This document shows, piece after piece, positions 1 to 32,922 of a DNA stretch of 32,922 nt. The notes beneath the pieces are model-generated. The model saw only the letters and a program-made list of their open reading frames with translations. It did no database searches and was not told the DNA's origin. Source of the stretch: a virus. The position numbers and the translations under genes were made by a program. Numbering within the stretch: position 1 is the stretch's first letter; the number at the start of each line of letters is the position of its first letter. The DNA is taken from IMG/VR virus record IMGVR_UViG_3300048591_000484, positions 1 through 32,922 of that record; one strand, 5' to 3'.

Positions 1-108
1 GCCAGAGCCAGAGCCAGAGCCATCGCCAGAGCCAGAGCCAGAGCCAGAGCCATCGCCATAGCCATAGCCATAGCCAGAGCCAGAGCCAGAGCCATAGCCA
101 GAGCCATC
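1..108. repeat. Hexanucleotide array 1, left part (18 units)
   Basis: Eighteen perfect-length 6-bp units, gccaga, gccata or gccatc on the plus strand, run without interruption. In the circle they are the same units as the right-hand end of the array at 32670-32903. All units differ from each other only in their last three bases. The array lies between the DUF6948-like gene and the gene at 32340-32642 and is read through by a minus-strand Gly-rich ORF (see 1-132 and 32664-32922). Confidence 0.95.
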
Positions 109-127
109 GTTTATTTTATTTAAGATT
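1..127. repeat. Left copy of 127-bp direct terminal repeat (assembly overlap)
   Basis: These 127 bases are identical to the last 127 bases of the window (32796-32922), compared base by base. Exact equal-length ends are what a k-mer assembler leaves on a circular contig, so one copy should be removed and the genome read as a circle of 32,795 bp. A true short terminal repeat on a linear virion genome is possible but less likely, because most of the repeat is itself a low-complexity hexamer array. Confidence 0.9.
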
Positions 128-132
128 TCCAT
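1..132 (-). CDS. Gly-Ser/Tyr/Asp repeat protein, N-terminal part (crosses contig junction)
   Basis: An ATG at 132-130 opens a frame that begins MEILNKIN and then reads X-Gly dipeptides through the whole hexamer array, where X is Ser (TCT), Tyr (TAT) or Asp (GAT). The start lies inside the last codons of the preceding gene (stop at 120-122), the usual arrangement in this operon. A weak SD (GGTG, 5 nt upstream) is present. The frame runs off the left edge and continues in the right-hand copy to a TAA at 32664-32666. In the circle the product is 87 residues: 8 leader residues, 39 X-Gly pairs and a final Asp. A competing frame from ATG 107 reads Ala-Leu/Met but has no SD. No known family is recognised, and expression is inferred. 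Confidence 0.5.
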   Translation of the reverse strand, partial: MEILNKINDGSGYGSGSGSGYGYGYGDGSGSGSGSGDGSGSGSG

Positions 133-482
133 ACTGGCACCGAGTCTAAGGACTTCAACGCTTTGTCTGTCAGGTGGAGTATTTCTATTGCCTCCGTCAG
201 CTCCACCTTATCGACCTTTTCTGGAAATTTACATTTTGAAATGTCTGGCGTTCCGGACTGTGCGCACTCTGACAGGCTTGCACCAAACCATTGCCACATT
301 CTTCTTGCTTTCAATAGAACAGCGTGTTTCCCATTTAAACATTTCAAGTAACCGTAAAAAACTCCGGCTGAATATGTTCTTACAATTACAGCAGGACATC
401 CGTCAAAGCTCTTTGCCTGTTTTCCTGCCGAGTCTGCTCGGATATATTCAATATCATCTATTTTGATTGTTTCTGGTTTCAT
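120..482 (-). CDS. DUF6948-like small phage protein
   Basis: A 120-residue protein with the pattern I associate with the phage DUF6948 family: an N-terminal PETIKIDDIEYIR strand, a central VRTYSAGVFYGYL segment, an ARRMWQWFGA motif and a C-terminal TEAIEI...VPVWK end. The function of this family is unknown. The start is ATG 482 with the SD AAGGAG, and it overlaps the TGA of the upstream HTH gene as ATGA, which suggests translational coupling. It sits in the early minus-strand operon, and its end contains the start of the Gly-rich repeat ORF. Its last codons are also present in the right-hand terminal repeat. Confidence 0.75.
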   Translation of the reverse strand: MKPETIKIDDIEYIRADSAGKQAKSFDGCPAVIVRTYSAGVFYGYLKCLNGKHAVLLKARRMWQWFGASLSECAQSGTPDISKCKFPEKVDKVELTEAIEILHLTDKALKSLDSVPVWKS

Positions 483-661
483 TGTTTTCTCCTTTGTTTA
501 ATTATCTCTAAAACTTGTTTCTGCTTTTCTAACTTAGGCTCCGATGCGTAATCGTGCCACATCCTAACAGTGCTTTGATGCATACCAAATTTTTTTGCAA
601 AATCTTGGGGAGTTAAGCCTAGTTCTTTAAGTCCTTTTCTTAGCTCTGCTCTAAATTTCAC
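479..661 (-). CDS. Small XRE/Cro-like helix-turn-helix protein
   Basis: A 60-residue basic protein. Residues 15-40 (LTPQDFAKKFGMHQSTVRMW) form a typical helix-turn-helix of the XRE/Cro type, with almost nothing outside the DNA-binding fold. The start is GTG 661 with SD AAGGGGGA 4 nt upstream. It overlaps the next gene by ATGA. It could be a Cro-like regulator of the early operon. It is not placed next to the divergent control region, so its operator is unclear. Confidence 0.7.
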   Translation of the reverse strand: MKFRAELRKGLKELGLTPQDFAKKFGMHQSTVRMWHDYASEPKLEKQKQVLEIIKQRRKQ

Positions 662-680
662 TTATTCCCCCTTGTTTTCT

Positions 681-755
681 TCATCTCATCCCACCATCAG
701 TAGCGATTAAAAACACAGTGCTTGCAATTACTAATGCCATGTATATTAAGAGCAT
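681..755 (-). CDS. Possible 24-residue membrane peptide
   Basis: A very short frame between the pentapeptide gene and the HTH gene. It starts at ATG 755, overlapping the end of the upstream gene by 10 nt, and stops with TGA at 681. The product is almost one transmembrane helix (LLIYMALVIASTVFLIAT) with a short polar tail. It fills the only gap in this part of the operon. No clear SD is present, so it could be chance. Confidence 0.3.
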   Translation of the reverse strand: MLLIYMALVIASTVFLIATDGGMR

Positions 756-1195
756 CTGTAATACCTTATGCACTCTGTTATGATCTTTTTGTTCAGTTTA
801 AACTCTTTCTCACACCACTTATCTGCACAGTCTTTTAACTGGAATTTATTAAGTTCTTCAAATGTTAATTTTCTACAACCCCAAATTACATAATCAAACA
901 TTATCGTCACATTGAATTTTAAATTGGTTAATTGAATTGCTTTGTAATCTTTACCACAATTTGAAGTTAAATATGTCGAGCTTAAATTTGCCCAGCGTAA
1001 ATTTGCCGAGCTTAAATTTGCCGAACGTAAATTTGCCGAGCTTAAATCTGCCGAACGTAAATTTGCCGAACGTAAATTTGCCGAGCTTAAATCTGCCGAA
1101 CGTAAATTTGCCCTTTCTCCCCCCTCTTTGCCCCTCAACCACTTACCATGATTGCCTAAAATTACCTTTAGCTCTTCTTCTGATATTTTTCTCAT
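746..1195 (-). CDS. Pentapeptide repeat protein
   Basis: A 149-residue protein. Residues 29-78 are ten consecutive pentapeptides of the A(N/D)L(R/S)(S/W) type, which fold as a right-handed quadrilateral beta-helix. Residues 79-149 form a non-repeat domain with DYVIWGCRKLTFEEL and four cysteines. Pentapeptide proteins such as MfpA and Qnr mimic B-DNA and bind gyrase, so a DNA-mimic role against a host enzyme is an inference here. Ten turns is shorter than Qnr. It overlaps the upstream GV-repeat gene as ATGA at 1192-1195, and the two repeat proteins are probably made together. Confidence 0.85.
   Translation of the reverse strand: MRKISEEELKVILGNHGKWLRGKEGGERANLRSADLSSANLRSANLRSADLSSANLRSANLSSANLRWANLSSTYLTSNCGKDYKAIQLTNLKFNVTIMFDYVIWGCRKLTFEELNKFQLKDCADKWCEKEFKLNKKIITECIRYYRCS
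962..1111 (-). repeat. 15-nt tandem repeats inside the pentapeptide gene
   Basis: Ten consecutive 15-nt units encode the pentapeptides. At DNA level the units are nearly identical (aaatttgccgagctt or aaatttgccgaacgt on the plus strand), which implies recent duplication by slippage or recombination rather than old protein repeats. Copy number can change without a frameshift. Confidence 0.9.
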
Positions 1196-1659
1196 ATCAA
1201 ACCCAGCTCTCTTGCTTTATCCACATCAATTTTGATTGTGATTTTCTTTTTGTTGACGCGAATGCCAGTTATCTCAAAAAAGATTTCGGCATCAAACTCT
1301 GGGAGTGACTTGATATACTCCAAAAGCTCTTTAGGCATACCGTACCATGCCTCATCTTTGCTTAACTCTTTAGTTTGATCCATTGGCACCAACATCCAAT
1401 CGTTACTATGGGCATGATAAAGTGACTTGATGTTGTTAAAAGTTGGACTCCAGCCATTTGATAAATACTTAATTTTACCCCACACTTCATAAAATCTCTT
1501 TTCACTAACATCCTTTCCAAAAATTGTTGCTTGTCTTTTTTTGTTAGAAATAAAAATAGCCCGATCAACTCCTTTCGAGTTCAAAACACCATAAGACTCG
1601 CTCACGCCATTAGACTCTCTCACGCCATTAGACTCGCTCACTCCATTATCGGCACTCAT
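1192..1659 (-). CDS. Phage protein with N-terminal GV hexapeptide repeats
   Basis: A 155-residue protein. Residues 4-31 are hexapeptides of the pattern (N/Y/K)GV(S/R/L)(E/N)S, followed by a globular part with ISNKKRQATIFGKDVSEKRF, WMLVPMDQ and a C-terminal PEFDAEIFFEITGI segment. I have seen this architecture (a variable number of S-x-GV turns fused to an FGK..SE.RF domain) in phage and prophage genomes, but no function is known to me. The short repeats could be a small beta-solenoid. The start is ATG 1659 with SD GGGGAG. The gene overlaps the pentapeptide gene by ATGA. Confidence 0.7.
   Translation of the reverse strand: MSADNGVSESNGVRESNGVSESYGVLNSKGVDRAIFISNKKRQATIFGKDVSEKRFYEVWGKIKYLSNGWSPTFNNIKSLYHAHSNDWMLVPMDQTKELSKDEAWYGMPKELLEYIKSLPEFDAEIFFEITGIRVNKKKITIKIDVDKARELGLI
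1595..1648 (-). repeat. 18-nt tandem repeat, three units
   Basis: Three adjacent 18-nt units (1595-1612, 1613-1630, 1631-1648) differ at only one or two positions and encode the six-residue GV repeats at the N-terminus of the gene at 1192-1659. The period is a multiple of three, so length changes stay in frame. Confidence 0.9.
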
Positions 1660-1660
1660 G

Positions 1661-1951
1661 TTAGAACTCCCCTCGTTTTACAATTTCCATTAGATTCTTT
1701 TTCGCTTCTTGGTAAGAAGTTATCGCGTCTAGTAAGGCATCGACGCTGCTTGTGTTTTCTCTCTTGGTGCGTGGTGTATATGTTCTCCCCTGCACTCCCT
1801 TTCTATACCTACAAACTTGTGCTCCAACTGCCGCAACAGTCCACTGTCTCCCTCTGTTCGTTGTGTAACCTTCGGAATTTAGTTGCTCAGCAAGGACATC
1901 GTACCTAGTTTGTCTTGCTCTTTGTAATAGTTGTGTTTTACTGATTCTCAT
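1661..1951 (-). CDS. Small DNA-binding protein with recombinase-type helix-turn-helix
   Basis: A basic protein of 96 residues. Its central part (LAEQLNSEGYTTNRGRQWT followed by VAAVGAQVCRYRKG) resembles the helix-turn-helix with the G-W-T motif found in the recombinase domain of large serine recombinases and in small phage regulators. It has no catalytic domain. Two ATGs (1957 and 1951) follow SD AAAGGAG. The second is at normal distance (7 nt) and is preferred. If 1957 is used, the start overlaps the TGA of the charged-repeat frame upstream (1954-1956). A regulator role is inferred. Confidence 0.6.
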   Translation of the reverse strand: MRISKTQLLQRARQTRYDVLAEQLNSEGYTTNRGRQWTVAAVGAQVCRYRKGVQGRTYTPRTKRENTSSVDALLDAITSYQEAKKNLMEIVKRGEF

Positions 1952-1982
1952 TTTCATTCTCCTTTTGTTTTATCGTTAAGAA

Positions 1983-2099
1983 TTATAAACTCCTGCTCCC
2001 GCTCCTGCTCCCGCTCCCGCTCCTGCTCCCGCTCCTGCTCCCGCTCCAGCTCCCGCTCCTGCTCCCGCTCCAGCTCTCTCGTAAAATACAAGCGTTCAT
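1983..2099 (-). CDS. Ser-Gly/Arg/Trp repeat peptide, 38 residues
   Basis: The frame begins MNACILRES at ATG 2099, 7 nt after the stop of the gene at 2106-2432, with SD AGAGG 9 nt upstream, and ends with TAA at 1983. Residues 10-37 are Ser alternating with Gly, Arg or Trp, encoded by hexanucleotide array 2 (1991-2074). The product would be a short, basic, disordered peptide. The alternative frame (TTG 2091 to TGA 1954) gives a 45-residue Glu-Arg/Gln/Leu helix that overlaps the next start. The sequence does not settle which frame, if any, is translated. The SD favours this one. Confidence 0.45.
   Translation of the reverse strand: MNACILRESWSGSRSGSWSGSRSGSRSGSGSRSGSRSL
1991..2074. repeat. Hexanucleotide array 2 (14 units)
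   Basis: Fourteen consecutive 6-bp units of the form tccNgc on the plus strand: seven with c, five with t, two with a at the variable base. The unit has no stop codon in any of the six frames. Minus-strand frames read Ser-Arg/Gly/Trp, Glu-Gln/Arg/Leu or Gly-Ala. In the Gly-Ala frame all changes would be synonymous, but that frame has no start codon upstream. It is unrelated in sequence to array 1 but has the same period and the same type of position, between two genes of one operon. Confidence 0.95.
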
Positions 2100-2105
2100 A
2101 ATCTA

Positions 2106-2432
2106 CTACCTCTGCTTGGTTATCAAAGACGGAATCTCTGTTATATCTAGCATGGCACCTCTGTTTAACACCACTGGCTTAGTGTATGGCTCGGCTTCTT
2201 TATGTGCTCCAGTTGAAACAAAGTCAGCCCACCTTTCTGTCTCGGGAATCCACGCTGCGTCTTCAATTAAAATCTCTTGTTGGTTAATTCCCTTAAGCCT
2301 TCCTGTGTATATCATCGTCACAGACCTAAATGCATAAATCTTTCCTATTTGTAGGAATGACTCTGATTTGTTTTCAAAGTTCTTTTCCTCGTCAGAAGAA
2401 AGTAGTGCTTTGATTAAAGTTAGTTTATCCAT
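2106..2432 (-). CDS. Hypothetical phage protein (DUF-like, recombination operon)
   Basis: A 108-residue acidic protein beginning MDKLTLIKALLSSDEE. The centre (IGKIYAFRSVTMIYTGRLKGI, then ILIEDAAWIPETERW) looks like a small beta-rich domain. Similar proteins occur beside single-strand annealing genes in phages, but no function is known to me. The start is ATG 2432 with SD AAAGGAG 8 nt upstream. An in-frame extension to 2561 would overlap the annealing gene and is not supported by an SD. It lies directly after the ERF gene. Confidence 0.6.
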   Translation of the reverse strand: MDKLTLIKALLSSDEEKNFENKSESFLQIGKIYAFRSVTMIYTGRLKGINQQEILIEDAAWIPETERWADFVSTGAHKEAEPYTKPVVLNRGAMLDITEIPSLITKQR

Positions 2433-2460: not shown

Positions 2461-2985
2461 TTACTGTCTTGCTCCGTTAAATTGAGTTCTCTGAACTGGC
2501 CTTTGCTGCTGTGGTCTCTGTTGAGTGTTTGGCCTTGTAGCCTCGTTTGCATCGTCATCAACTTGTGGGATTCTTAGTAAAGACGCAAGCGTGTATCTCC
2601 TAAAATAAGTAACGCTAGAGCCGAAGGCTTGAGGGTTGTTTTTTTCTTTAATAACAATCTCAACTGGCTCTGCTATTAGTACTTGGCCTGATTTATGGGC
2701 TAGTATTGTTTGCACATACCACTGAGTCCCTTGGTCTGAGTTTTTTGACGAAAGCGGCTGAAGTACAGAAAACCCATATTTTCCAAAAATCTCTCTAAAT
2801 GATTCTATTACTGATTCCATGTCGGCGTACTTAGATTTAAAGAAAGGGTTTTGCGAATCCTTTACAGCTCCTTGCATCTCTGCTTGTGCCTTTGCTAGGT
2901 CTGCACAGAACTCAGGACCTAGGTTTGTCTGCATTTTATTTATTGCTATTTTATAATTATCTACTGTTTCTTGTATTTCTTGCAT
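2461..2985 (-). CDS. erf: ERF-family single-strand DNA annealing protein
   Basis: A protein of about 174 residues. The conserved ERF core is visible: AKAQAEM, then DSQNPFFKSKYADMESV, a glycine-rich VQTILAHKSGQ strand, QAFGSSVTYFRRYTLASLL and the acidic VDDDANE. The C-terminal tail is rich in Gln, Arg and Pro, as in other ERF proteins. ERF proteins form rings that anneal complementary single strands (P22 Erf group). The adjacent upstream RecE-like exonuclease would supply the single strands. SD AGGAG is 8 nt from ATG 2985; ATG 2991 is only 2 nt away and less likely. Confidence 0.9.
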   Translation of the reverse strand: MQEIQETVDNYKIAINKMQTNLGPEFCADLAKAQAEMQGAVKDSQNPFFKSKYADMESVIESFREIFGKYGFSVLQPLSSKNSDQGTQWYVQTILAHKSGQVLIAEPVEIVIKEKNNPQAFGSSVTYFRRYTLASLLRIPQVDDDANEATRPNTQQRPQQQRPVQRTQFNGARQ

Positions 2986-2996
2986 TTTCATTTCTC

Positions 2997-3815
2997 CTAT
3001 TCAAATTGACTAAGCTCCCACAATGGAAGCACTAACTCTTGTGTTTCTTTTTTATACCCAGCGGTCCAGTCAGTTTCAATAGCTAAGGAGTATTTTTCTA
3101 AAGCTTGTGAAACTCTTTCCCACCCTCTTTGAAGCGTCTCATCTGTTGCTTTATATACCGCCCAGTCGTAAGGCTTTTTCGTCTCTTGAGCAAGCCATAT
3201 ATATTCTATGTTTTCCATAGGACACCCTGTGTTTTGATTAAGTCCCCAGACATACCATGCTGCGCTTAAGTGGTATTTAAGGTTAGCAGCTTGTTTTGTG
3301 AACTCACTCTTTGATGCGTCTTGTGTTGTTTTGTACTCTACTATCCTAAATCCATTTTCTGTTGTTTCTAATAGATCAATTTTTGCCTTACACTTTGTCT
3401 CTGGTAAGCTGTGAAGCTCTCTTAATTCTTCTGGAAGGTCCCAAAATATAGCTATCTCAGACTTGCCGTTTCTTACCCTAGAATCCCAGTCAAGACTAAG
3501 CATCTGGCGCATCTGAGATAGCTGTTCGTTTTCTTCTTCTGTTAAAACTAAATAGTTCTCTTTTAAAGAGTCCTCGAATTGCTTTGCTTCTTCTTTTCCT
3601 TTTATTGTTCTTTTGTCAAACTTCGGTTGAATAACTTTATTTTTATTAAAAAGATCAGGCTCTAAAAACATCGTGTGAGCGAGTGTTCCGAATCTCATTG
3701 CTGGGCTTGGTTCTCGCTCTACTTTAGAGTGTAGTGGCGACCTAAGTATTTCTTTTAATTTAGATCCGCTTAAATAATCTAACGAGTGATACTCTTTATC
3801 TGACATTTTTTGCAT
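2997..3815 (-). CDS. RecE-like PD-(D/E)XK exonuclease (DUF3799 type)
   Basis: A 272-residue protein. It has the features of the exodeoxyribonuclease VIII PDDEXK-like domain: an N-terminal YLSGSKLKEILRSP helix, RFGTLAHTMFLEP (His47), a KIDLLE motif (Asp147) and IVEYKTT (Glu160, Lys162), then the downstream SAAWYVWGL helix. These residues bind the catalytic metals and cleave DNA. It would resect double-strand ends and pair with the ERF protein encoded 12 nt downstream. It is shorter than E. coli RecE, which is normal for phage versions. The start is ATG 3815 with SD AAAGG, and it overlaps the upstream HTH gene by 20 nt. Confidence 0.88.
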   Translation of the reverse strand: MQKMSDKEYHSLDYLSGSKLKEILRSPLHSKVEREPSPAMRFGTLAHTMFLEPDLFNKNKVIQPKFDKRTIKGKEEAKQFEDSLKENYLVLTEEENEQLSQMRQMLSLDWDSRVRNGKSEIAIFWDLPEELRELHSLPETKCKAKIDLLETTENGFRIVEYKTTQDASKSEFTKQAANLKYHLSAAWYVWGLNQNTGCPMENIEYIWLAQETKKPYDWAVYKATDETLQRGWERVSQALEKYSLAIETDWTAGYKKETQELVLPLWELSQFE

Positions 3816-5320: not shown

Positions 5321-5977
5321 CTATTTTCTGCACTTGATCGGCCCGTAGGGTAAATTTTGGTTGATCGGGTACTCTAGCTCTATAATACTTTCATTGTTAG
5401 TTCCTAAATACCAATGAGTCTCAGGGCTCATGCCCATAATGTAACGAGAAGACGCTGGACCAATCTCATGCCCCACAGACACAACTACAGACCTATTCCC
5501 ATAATGCACTAAAAGCCTTGTGTTAGGCGCAAAGTTCTTTTTCATGTTCAGAGTAGCTCCCCAAGTCTCCTGCTCAATAGATGGCCGATAAAAGCCACGA
5601 GAACCCTGGCCCCACCAACCACCGCCCTCGGGAGGTGTCCATTTTCTCTTATACTCAGCATTATAAACATCAGAGCAATCTTTTTTCCCTAAGATGTTGC
5701 AGCTCATTTTTAAGTGCTCATCAATTCTATGCTCTTCGTGTACAGGGTAAGCTCCCCTTACAAAAAGATCCGCAGTAGAAACCCAGTGGCTTTCAATTAC
5801 AGACCTGCCAATAATAGGAAGCTCGATAGATCGCCCATCTCTTAGCTCAATCTTAACTCTTTTGCTTGAACAAATATCGTCCTCTGCTTTACAAGAAGAG
5901 ATTGAGAGAAAAAGAATAATGATAATTGATAAAGTCCACGCCATAACTGCCAGGTCAATCTTTGTTTGTTTGTTCAA
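5321..5977 (-). CDS. Lipoprotein with possible double-psi beta-barrel domain
   Basis: A 218-residue protein. Residues 1-29 are a lipoprotein signal peptide: a basic n-region, a long hydrophobic core and the lipobox ISSC with Cys29. The mature part has about six cysteines and a Gly/Trp-rich stretch (PPEGGGWWGQGSRG, about 117-130). The C-terminal third (NTRLLVHYGNRSVVVSVGHE then IGPASSRYIMG and WYLGT) resembles the RlpA-like double-psi beta-barrel pattern with its GP and LG positions, but the match is loose. It is the first gene from the divergent control region, so it is made early. An envelope role such as superinfection exclusion is possible but not shown. The start is TTG 5977 with SD GAGGGA. 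Confidence 0.6.
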   Translation of the reverse strand: MNKQTKIDLAVMAWTLSIIIILFLSISSCKAEDDICSSKRVKIELRDGRSIELPIIGRSVIESHWVSTADLFVRGAYPVHEEHRIDEHLKMSCNILGKKDCSDVYNAEYKRKWTPPEGGGWWGQGSRGFYRPSIEQETWGATLNMKKNFAPNTRLLVHYGNRSVVVSVGHEIGPASSRYIMGMSPETHWYLGTNNESIIELEYPINQNLPYGPIKCRK

Positions 5978-32343: not shown

Positions 32344-32642
32344 TTTTTTACCTCTCTTTGTTTCCCATATTTCTTTTCTATATACTTATTATAATTGATA
32401 ACTGCGTCTTTAAGTTTGAAATCATAGCCAACCCTGCATTTCAGTGTTACTTCTCTTGGCTTGTATTTCCACAGCTTTTCAGCTGTTTTTTCTAAGTATG
32501 TTAAAAACTCATCTGATTTTTCTCCACCACTCGGATCTAACAATATCTCGGCCAGTATTTTTAGAGTTTCTCTAATGTTTGCAATGCTTGTTTGAGACTT
32601 CTTTCCCTCTCGCTTCGCAATTTCTTTGATTAGTTTTTTCAT
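32340..32642 (-). CDS. Hypothetical helical protein after the Gly-rich array
   Basis: A 100-residue highly charged helical protein (KKLIKEIAKREGKKSQTSIA, later YLEKTAEKLWKYKPREVTL). ATG 32642 is coupled as ATGA to a frame that reads Ala-Leu/Met through the hexamer array, and lies 22 nt after the stop of the Gly-rich frame. The SD AAGGA is far (13 nt), so translation may depend on ribosomes arriving from the repeat. Function not recognised. Confidence 0.55.
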   Translation of the reverse strand: MKKLIKEIAKREGKKSQTSIANIRETLKILAEILLDPSGGEKSDEFLTYLEKTAEKLWKYKPREVTLKCRVGYDFKLKDAVINYNKYIEKKYGKQREVKK

Positions 32643-32663
32643 CTTTTATTCTTAATCCTTTCC

Positions 32664-32922
32664 TTAGTCGCCATAGCCAGAGCCAGAGCCATCGCCAGAG
32701 CCATAGCCAGAGCCAGAGCCAGAGCCATCGCCAGAGCCAGAGCCAGAGCCAGAGCCATCGCCATAGCCATCGCCATAGCCAGAGCCAGAGCCATAGCCAG
32801 AGCCAGAGCCAGAGCCATCGCCAGAGCCAGAGCCAGAGCCAGAGCCATCGCCATAGCCATAGCCATAGCCAGAGCCAGAGCCAGAGCCATAGCCAGAGCC
32901 ATCGTTTATTTTATTTAAGATT
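32664..32922 (-). CDS. Gly-Ser/Tyr/Asp repeat protein, body and C-terminus (5' end at contig edge)
   Basis: This is the main part of the protein whose start is at 130-132 (circle). From the right edge the frame reads 39 X-Gly pairs: 23 Ser, 9 Tyr and 7 Asp, then Gly-Asp and TAA (32664-32666). With its eight-residue leader MEILNKIN the full product is 87 residues, disordered, with no hydrophobic core. It is open in five of six frames, so protein-level evidence is weak; the start overlaps the preceding gene end as other genes in this operon do. Short stickers (Tyr) separated by Gly-Ser resemble low-complexity domains that can condense. This is only a hypothesis. Confidence 0.5.
   Translation of the reverse strand, partial: ILNKINDGSGYGSGSGSGYGYGYGDGSGSGSGSGDGSGSGSGYGSGSGYGDGYGDGSGSGSGSGDGSGSGSGYGSGDGSGSGYGD
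32670..32903. repeat. Hexanucleotide array 1 (39 units in the circle)
   Basis: Thirty-nine consecutive 6-bp units, each gccaga, gccata or gccatc on the plus strand. An 11-unit (66-bp) block at 32700-32765 recurs at 32790-32855, so the array has a higher-order repeat from a recent duplication. The last 18 units are also present at 1-108 because of the assembly overlap. Copy number is uncertain because short reads cannot span the array. Confidence 0.95.
32796..32922. repeat. Right copy of 127-bp direct terminal repeat
   Basis: Identical to 1-127. The overlap includes 18 hexamer units and the 19 bases after them, up to the taagatt found at both ends. The assembler probably broke the circle here because of the low-complexity array. 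Confidence 0.9.

Follow-up and report, generated by a model that had tools for sequence, protein, structure and literature searches.

Two arrays of 6-base repeats in a virus contig (IMG/VR virus record IMGVR_UViG_3300048591_000484, positions 1 to 32,922, the whole 32,922-nucleotide stretch being called here the window) are the bodies of short genes on the minus strand, read as alternating Gly-X (array A) and Ser-X (array B) dipeptides, and in many phages a repeat-peptide open reading frame (ORF) of this kind is tightly linked to a gene whose product is predicted to have an Sm/LSm-like fold (genes A and B in the window). We give an even chance to the reading that each pair is a two-gene module, in which the Sm-like protein and a separately made low-complexity "tail" peptide would work together, probably as a multivalent assembly on RNA or single-stranded DNA. 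Reading frame, residue alphabet, the ribosome-binding site of type A and the linkage to Sm-like genes are computational results, from which we infer the joint function.

Both arrays and their coordinates, as reported in an earlier note on this DNA, are real and were recovered among the ORFs of the window and by Tandem Repeats Finder (TRF), which places the 6-bp arrays at 1-106/32670-32901 (A) and 1990-2076 (B). Array A, from ATG 132 to TAA 32664, encodes MEILNKIND followed by 39 Gly-X units, in which X is S 23, Y 9 and D 7 times, and the product of array B, read from ATG 2099 to 1983, is MNACILRESWSGSRSGSWSGSRSGSRSGSGSRSGSRSL. These frames, already chosen in that note, are conserved in relatives through different codons. 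Among relatives of gene A, the array DNA differs at the same position and the product type is kept (GGA TAC/AAC/GAC in L001, GGC TAT/GAT/TCT in L003, GGT TAC/TCC in L040, GGG TAC in L053), in which every second residue is Gly and those between are mainly Tyr, Asp, Ser, Asn or Thr; across all linked type A arrays the dominant Gly codon is GGC, GGT, GGG or GGA, depending on the phage, and the remaining frames give many different dipeptides. Similarly, the Ser codon of type B varies across phages (TCG, TCT, TCA, AGC or AGT), X stays mainly Gly, Arg or Trp, and the leader is near MN-x-[AV]-[IM]-[LM]-R-E-x-W in most relatives of gene B. An Ala-Gly frame was at first suggested for array B, because the variation within that one array is all silent there; it was rejected, since the TCN Ser codons of relatives turn it into Gly-Arg, Gly-Leu or Gly-Gln/His, while Ser-[Gly/Arg/Trp] persists.

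Other frames that end as ATGA on the next gene, to which the earlier note also pointed, do exist, namely an Ala-Leu/Met ORF at 32639-32902 and a Glu-rich frame whose end coincides with the ATG of 1661-1957, but every frame of the hexamers is free of stops, so that alternative frames open across the arrays are expected and carry little weight; moreover, neither is the frame conserved in relatives. In the loci read, arrays have a start codon of their own, located past the Sm stop or overlapping with it. With the frame of the Sm ORF as reference, the 66 linked type A arrays lie in frame -1 in 48 cases, +1 in 15 and 0 in 3; for type B, the window, L018 and L024 have the array in the frame of gene B, separated from it by a stop codon. 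Because gene and array show no fixed frame relation, a programmed frameshift from the Sm gene was rejected. Pairing of the Shine-Dalgarno region with the 16S tail was evaluated for 68 type A starts and averages -6.3 kcal/mol, with 71% at -5 or stronger, as compared with -3.2 kcal/mol and 23% for control ATGs within Sm ORFs (n=475, P 9e-12) and -3.1 kcal/mol and 22% for random ATGs (n=1348, P 2e-13), although the conserved end of the Sm protein could supply part of this signal.

The linkage was observed in homology sets built on each gene (21 contigs for gene A, 24 loci for gene B). In the former, L056 stops within the gene, and L008 retains just the first few codons of the array; 18 of the other 19 carry a long (Gly-X)n and L005 a short run. 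A Ser-alternating array is present in 21/24 loci of the latter (degenerate in L021, and frame-shifted in L014, which is the same as L010); the contig end truncates L018, and no array is present in L031 or in L037, this last also a weak match. A blind scan of viral contigs for the Gly-X DNA pattern, ignoring neighbours, gave at least 120 stretches. When mixed arrays were defined by Tyr plus Ser/Asp/Asn, and linkage by a gene A profile match at 1.5 kb or less on the same strand, an Sm-like gene was found near 62/80 mixed G-X loci versus 2/46 loci with other Gly arrays, among the loci listed; iteration of the profile on the scanned loci changed its matches only from 64 to 65. Among the unlinked mixed loci, the array lies within about 130 bases of a locus end in 13/18, the exceptions being L112, L178, L180, L190 and L202. 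The array follows the Sm gene in 65/66 linked arrays, with a median gap of 19 nt between Sm stop and array. In MW202478 (L104) the array gene precedes the Sm gene. In a Ser-X scan, with the gene B profile iterated in the same way, 15/18 mixed arrays away from a locus start are linked to that profile, versus 2/14 uniform Ser-X arrays and 1/77 non-Ser-X matches.

Regarding the upstream genes, the model of gene B is clearly of Sm/LSm-like fold by both Foldseek and VIA-align. Sm/LSm chains occupy 50/50 rows listed for it by VIA-align (Z 9.1-10.0, root-mean-square deviation (rmsd) 1.3-4.1, 60-75 residues aligned), and it also matches DUF6948 models among viral predictions. The family consensus contains INRGALLD, with an invariant Arg, which by eye may correspond to the Sm2-type Arg-Gly motif of Sm/LSm proteins. 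Gene B of the window has no match in Pfam at E 0.1, and 0/21 members of its family match DUF6948 at E 1, the family to which gene A belongs (Pfam PF22253, 92.4 bits vs a cut-off of 27, E 2e-26). For gene A the prediction of an Sm/LSm-like fold is of moderate strength: its best 50 Foldseek rows comprise Sm/LSm complexes and three NatC rows (probability 0.98-1.00, best E 3.7e-3), and among its matches is PDB 3BY7 (Z 6.4, rmsd 2.9, 69 residues, 17% identity), a solved protein from an uncultured source described as similar to Sm/LSm RNA-binding proteins. Compared by eye in the same way, its consensus has no RG like that of INRGALLD. Mean values of the predicted local distance difference test in the AlphaFold models are 86 for gene A (from 17 sequences) and 85 for gene B (21 sequences), and the two models are similar in strand order, suggesting genes of similar fold that are probably paralogous. 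BLASTP of gene A against gene B gave nothing; sequence homology of the two was considered and not retained, in view of this empty search and a weak family alignment, and the claim is left on fold only.

Residue usage in the arrays is restricted. Among the 2,212 X residues of linked Gly-X arrays, Y (755), S (753) and D (547) are followed by N 73, F 32, H 20, E 10, T 6, C 4 and A 4; the scan pattern favours S, Y, D and A and excludes Tyr-less arrays by definition, and the less biased counts of the homology set agree (of 460 X residues in set A: S 153, Y 153, D 104, N 18, T 14, F 9, C 5, A 3, V 1). In set B, the 460 X residues include R 175, G 138, W 113, L 19 and a few others. Transitions are usually commoner than other changes, and His and Cys, although one transition from Tyr codons, are rare, which points to selection on residues. 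Tyr and Asp both occur in every one of 69 distinct type A arrays, within ranges of 0.10-0.60 for Y and 0.06-0.48 for D, and the order of X is indistinguishable from shuffled (760 same-neighbour pairs vs 766 +/- 21). Thus, composition rather than order appears to matter in type A, as expected of a disordered sticker-and-spacer chain, and type A shows the makeup of condensate-type sequences, with aromatic and charged stickers on small spacers and composition kept without order. The design that the earlier note saw as common to both arrays, a small residue alternating with a small, aromatic or charged one, is retained in relatives, and so is the chemistry it had distinguished, Tyr/Asp in A and Arg/Trp in B.

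The array forms the main part of a short gene that lies behind an Sm/LSm-like gene, often overlaps its end and is read from its own start; in the proposed mechanism, both products would act together like an Sm protein whose low-complexity tail is supplied as a second chain. The Sm-like protein would assemble into a ring binding RNA or single-stranded DNA (ssDNA), the disordered peptide would add many weak contacts, through Tyr, Asp and Ser spaced by Gly (A) or through Arg, Trp and Gly spaced by Ser (B), and it might in this way cluster, recruit or release nucleic acid during early infection. A further step, which we propose tentatively and consider less probable than the module itself, is a widespread phage two-part ribonucleoprotein, in which an Sm-like ring and a translationally coupled sticker-and-spacer peptide acting in trans, available in two chemistries, would drive a phage-specific nucleic-acid condensate; condensation is here suggested by composition.

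Several systems resemble the pair in part. Eukaryotic Sm/LSm proteins, among them SmD1 with its (GR)n tail, resemble it in combining an Sm fold with a low-complexity, dipeptide-like tail, but there the tail is in the same chain. Bacterial genomes show a related pattern, mostly nearly pure GY tails, chiefly near the end of long ORFs, which we take to be tails of Wzc-like tyrosine kinases. They share the Gly-Tyr alternation; unlike phage arrays they are nearly pure GY, sit in long ORFs and are rarely Sm-linked, with one array linked to an Sm-like gene (L441) among the 120 matches listed. In Borg elements, PMC9879509 describes tandem-repeat disordered regions fused to Sm proteins, in 5/19 Borg Sm proteins. 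The likeness lies in an Sm-fold protein of an extrachromosomal element together with fast-evolving disordered tandem repeats; the Borg repeats are N-terminal fusions with units of 4-17 residues, whereas the phage module has a separate gene with its own start, two-residue units and a fixed alphabet, and in the loci read the repeats do not lie in the same chain as the Sm fold. No description of the gene pair or of DUF6948 was found in open-licence PMC papers.

Among annotated phages, 17 matches were obtained, and the array is present in 9/9 of those opened: Iodobacter phage PhiPLPE, Vibrio phage IKEMa6-1, Chlorobiaceae phage CV-1-33, Pectobacterium phage Taid, three Manatee Spring genomes and two human fecal records. 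Module B of the window stands beside ERF and exonuclease VIII genes, phiPLPE has RecE nearby, and MW202478 is flanked by exonuclease and erf; these recombination-type neighbours make an early role on RNA or ssDNA plausible. Neighbours that could be identified include the early genes RecT, NinG and SSB and few structural genes.

The earlier note had proposed that the two window peptides bind one another through Tyr-Arg and Asp-Arg contacts, giving a two-component condensate. Their complementary chemistry in the window, with net charges of -8 (A) and +5 (B), would suit such a pairing, but the gene B profile found nothing in 20 contigs carrying A (0/20), nor the gene A profile in 23 carrying B (0/23), although many of these contigs may be fragments and independently distributed rare genes would seldom meet. 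As positive controls, the B and A profiles recovered their own families in 24/24 and 21/21 records, the window in both, and local searches of the fetched contigs likewise gave no co-occurrence of A and B. With both modules together in the window only, as compared with 43 relatives' contigs, neither needs the other, mutual exclusion not being implied; A and B appear to be alternative forms of a single module rather than partners, and we consider the two-peptide condensate extremely improbable. Very unlikely, too, is that the arrays act at the level of DNA or RNA (as attachment site, recombination hotspot or translation-coupling spacer) and that their coding is incidental, even if array length shifts while flanks stay: L010 and L011 are identical at 5329/5330 upstream bases (near 5350) and have 15.5 and 34.2 copies of array B. 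In the same direction, PMC3391216 presents the (KMGCCG)35 repeat of phiPLPE (46,046-46,255) as a speculated attachment site. That array is of the same kind and lies behind the DUF6948-like gene phiPLPE_84, and what was published there as a DNA site has here a conserved G-X frame. Set against the conserved core of an attachment site, and on the phage side only, array DNA differs between phages while the dipeptide pattern is conserved. The passive spacer coupled through ATGA, offered as an alternative in the earlier note, likewise does not agree with the conserved G-X/S-X frames, the strong Shine-Dalgarno sites of type A array ORFs and the L104 array that precedes its Sm gene.

Two other explanations accept the peptides as products. 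One, that the G-X/S-X genes encode structural or surface low-complexity proteins (virion glue, fibre parts) merely sharing an early operon, draws on the resemblance of array composition to silk-like Gly-X repeats and on gut versions with an extra C-terminal domain; it appears unlikely, the linkage being far tighter than a shared operon requires (median gap 19 nt) and the neighbours including early genes (RecT, NinG, SSB) and few structural ones. The other, doubtful though somewhat better placed, is that the peptide regulates the Sm-like protein as a competitor or release factor mimicking nucleic acid, for which the acidic C-terminal tail of Hfq is a model. Type A peptides are mostly acidic (mean net -6.9) and made beside the Sm-like protein, as this would require, but type B peptides are strongly basic (mean net +9.7), so that one mechanism does not fit both types.

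Considering the two-gene module itself, several observations weigh against it: (i) in gut phages the G-X run lies inside a longer protein, so that a free peptide is not universal; (ii) a Pfam scan gave few matches for 148 near ORFs (of 175 picked by a simple ORF caller) and 148 far ORFs (of 179), the near set being only mildly recombination-like and the far set not clearly different; (iii) peptide charge is not clearly complementary to that of the own Sm protein, mean net charges being 0.0 for the A Sm protein with peptides at -6.9 and -1.8 for the B Sm protein with peptides at +9.7; (iv) VIA-align of gene A to Sm/LSm reaches Z 6.0-6.9, under the safe level of the tool; (v) the A-B family alignment is weak (hhalign probability 4, P 0.011); and (vi) L010 shows a change of array B frame relative to the nearly identical L011. 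Charge complementarity with the own Sm protein, weak for A, is hence not claimed. In the gut records, a short leader precedes the G-X run, and a conserved C-terminal domain bearing a WHHxLTGSC-like motif follows it; the first two members of this domain gave no Pfam match above cut-off and no PHROG match, and in an alignment of the gut version PDB matches fall mainly on the Gly-rich part. The frame shift in L010 takes the conserved leader into a Glu-rich frame.

Regarding the layout of the window (Table 1), its first 127 bases are identical to its last 127, indicating that the phage contig is circular, is 32,795 bp long and was opened within array A. The true length of array A is uncertain, because the contig is broken inside it, as also occurs in the relatives G005 and G012, both of whose contig ends lie in the array.

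Table 1. Features of the window discussed in the text (coordinates in window positions).
Feature	Coordinates	Strand	Evidence and remarks
Terminal repeat of window 1-127	32796..32922	.	Mostly within array A; sign of circularity
Array A ORF, first part	1..132	-	ATG 132; MEILNKIND then (Gly-[Ser/Tyr/Asp])n; overlaps gene A end; crosses circular junction
Array A ORF, second part	32664..32795	-	TAA 32664; 87 codons in total
Sm-like gene A (predicted fold), DUF6948 (Pfam PF22253)	120..482	-	Pfam, AlphaFold, Foldseek, VIA-align
Array B ORF	1983..2099	-	Leader MNACILRESW then (Ser-[Gly/Arg/Trp])n; 38 codons; ATG 2099, stop 1983
Hexamer array B, GGAGCN on coding strand	1990..2076	-	TRF, 14.5 copies
Sm-like gene B (predicted fold), no Pfam family	2106..2432	-	AlphaFold, VIA-align, conserved INRGALLD stretch
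Neighbour: ERF-family ssDNA-annealing protein	2461..2991	-	Pfam ERF E 3.1e-27, PHROG 2324; directly upstream of module B; context, outside module
Neighbour: exonuclease VIII-like protein	2997..3815	-	PHROG 412 E 1.7e-59; context

Contigs often end inside arrays (the window at position 1, G005, G012, L013, L018, L044, L045, L058 and others). Assemblies thus break there, array lengths are uncertain, and gene counts from short-read contigs will miss peptides. Five successive Gly-X ORFs at L163:1659-2968, with common leader and C-terminal tail and different arrays, lie on the same strand as an Sm-like gene just upstream. L034 has two consecutive copies of the type B leader MNAAILRSGW, directly downstream of 3252, an apparent duplication of the peptide gene. 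At L046:2995-3760, the DUF6948 gene is open only with TGA read as Gly (NCBI table 25), relatives having mostly Gly at the four TGA codons; this phage also has a Gly-X array of the same kind, and its host may be Gracilibacteria-like. Other repeats were noted as well: contig G018 carries, at L073 9425-9638, a second tandem array of 9/18 bp at most 1 kb from its Gly-X array, and in the window itself a pentapeptide-repeat protein at 746-1195 (minus strand) contains a 15-bp tandem array, with similar DNA in Listeria phages, and an 18-bp tandem repeat at 1589-1648 opens gene 1192-1659, with SNGV(S/R)E-like units.

Existing annotations describe the gene pair only as hypothetical proteins or a DNA repeat; it is present in numerous metagenomic virus contigs, in phage records from spring water and human feces, and in named Iodobacter, Vibrio, Pectobacterium and Chlorobiaceae phages. 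The case also warns that hexamer arrays of this type are genes, which annotation and low-complexity filters easily overlook. If the two products work together, nature would here provide a very small experiment on how the behaviour of an Sm-like nucleic-acid binder depends on low-complexity composition, in which two opposite chemistries are combined with what is apparently the same fold; and if the condensate reading were true, it would constitute a natural minimal condensate system whose length is tuned by hexamer slippage.

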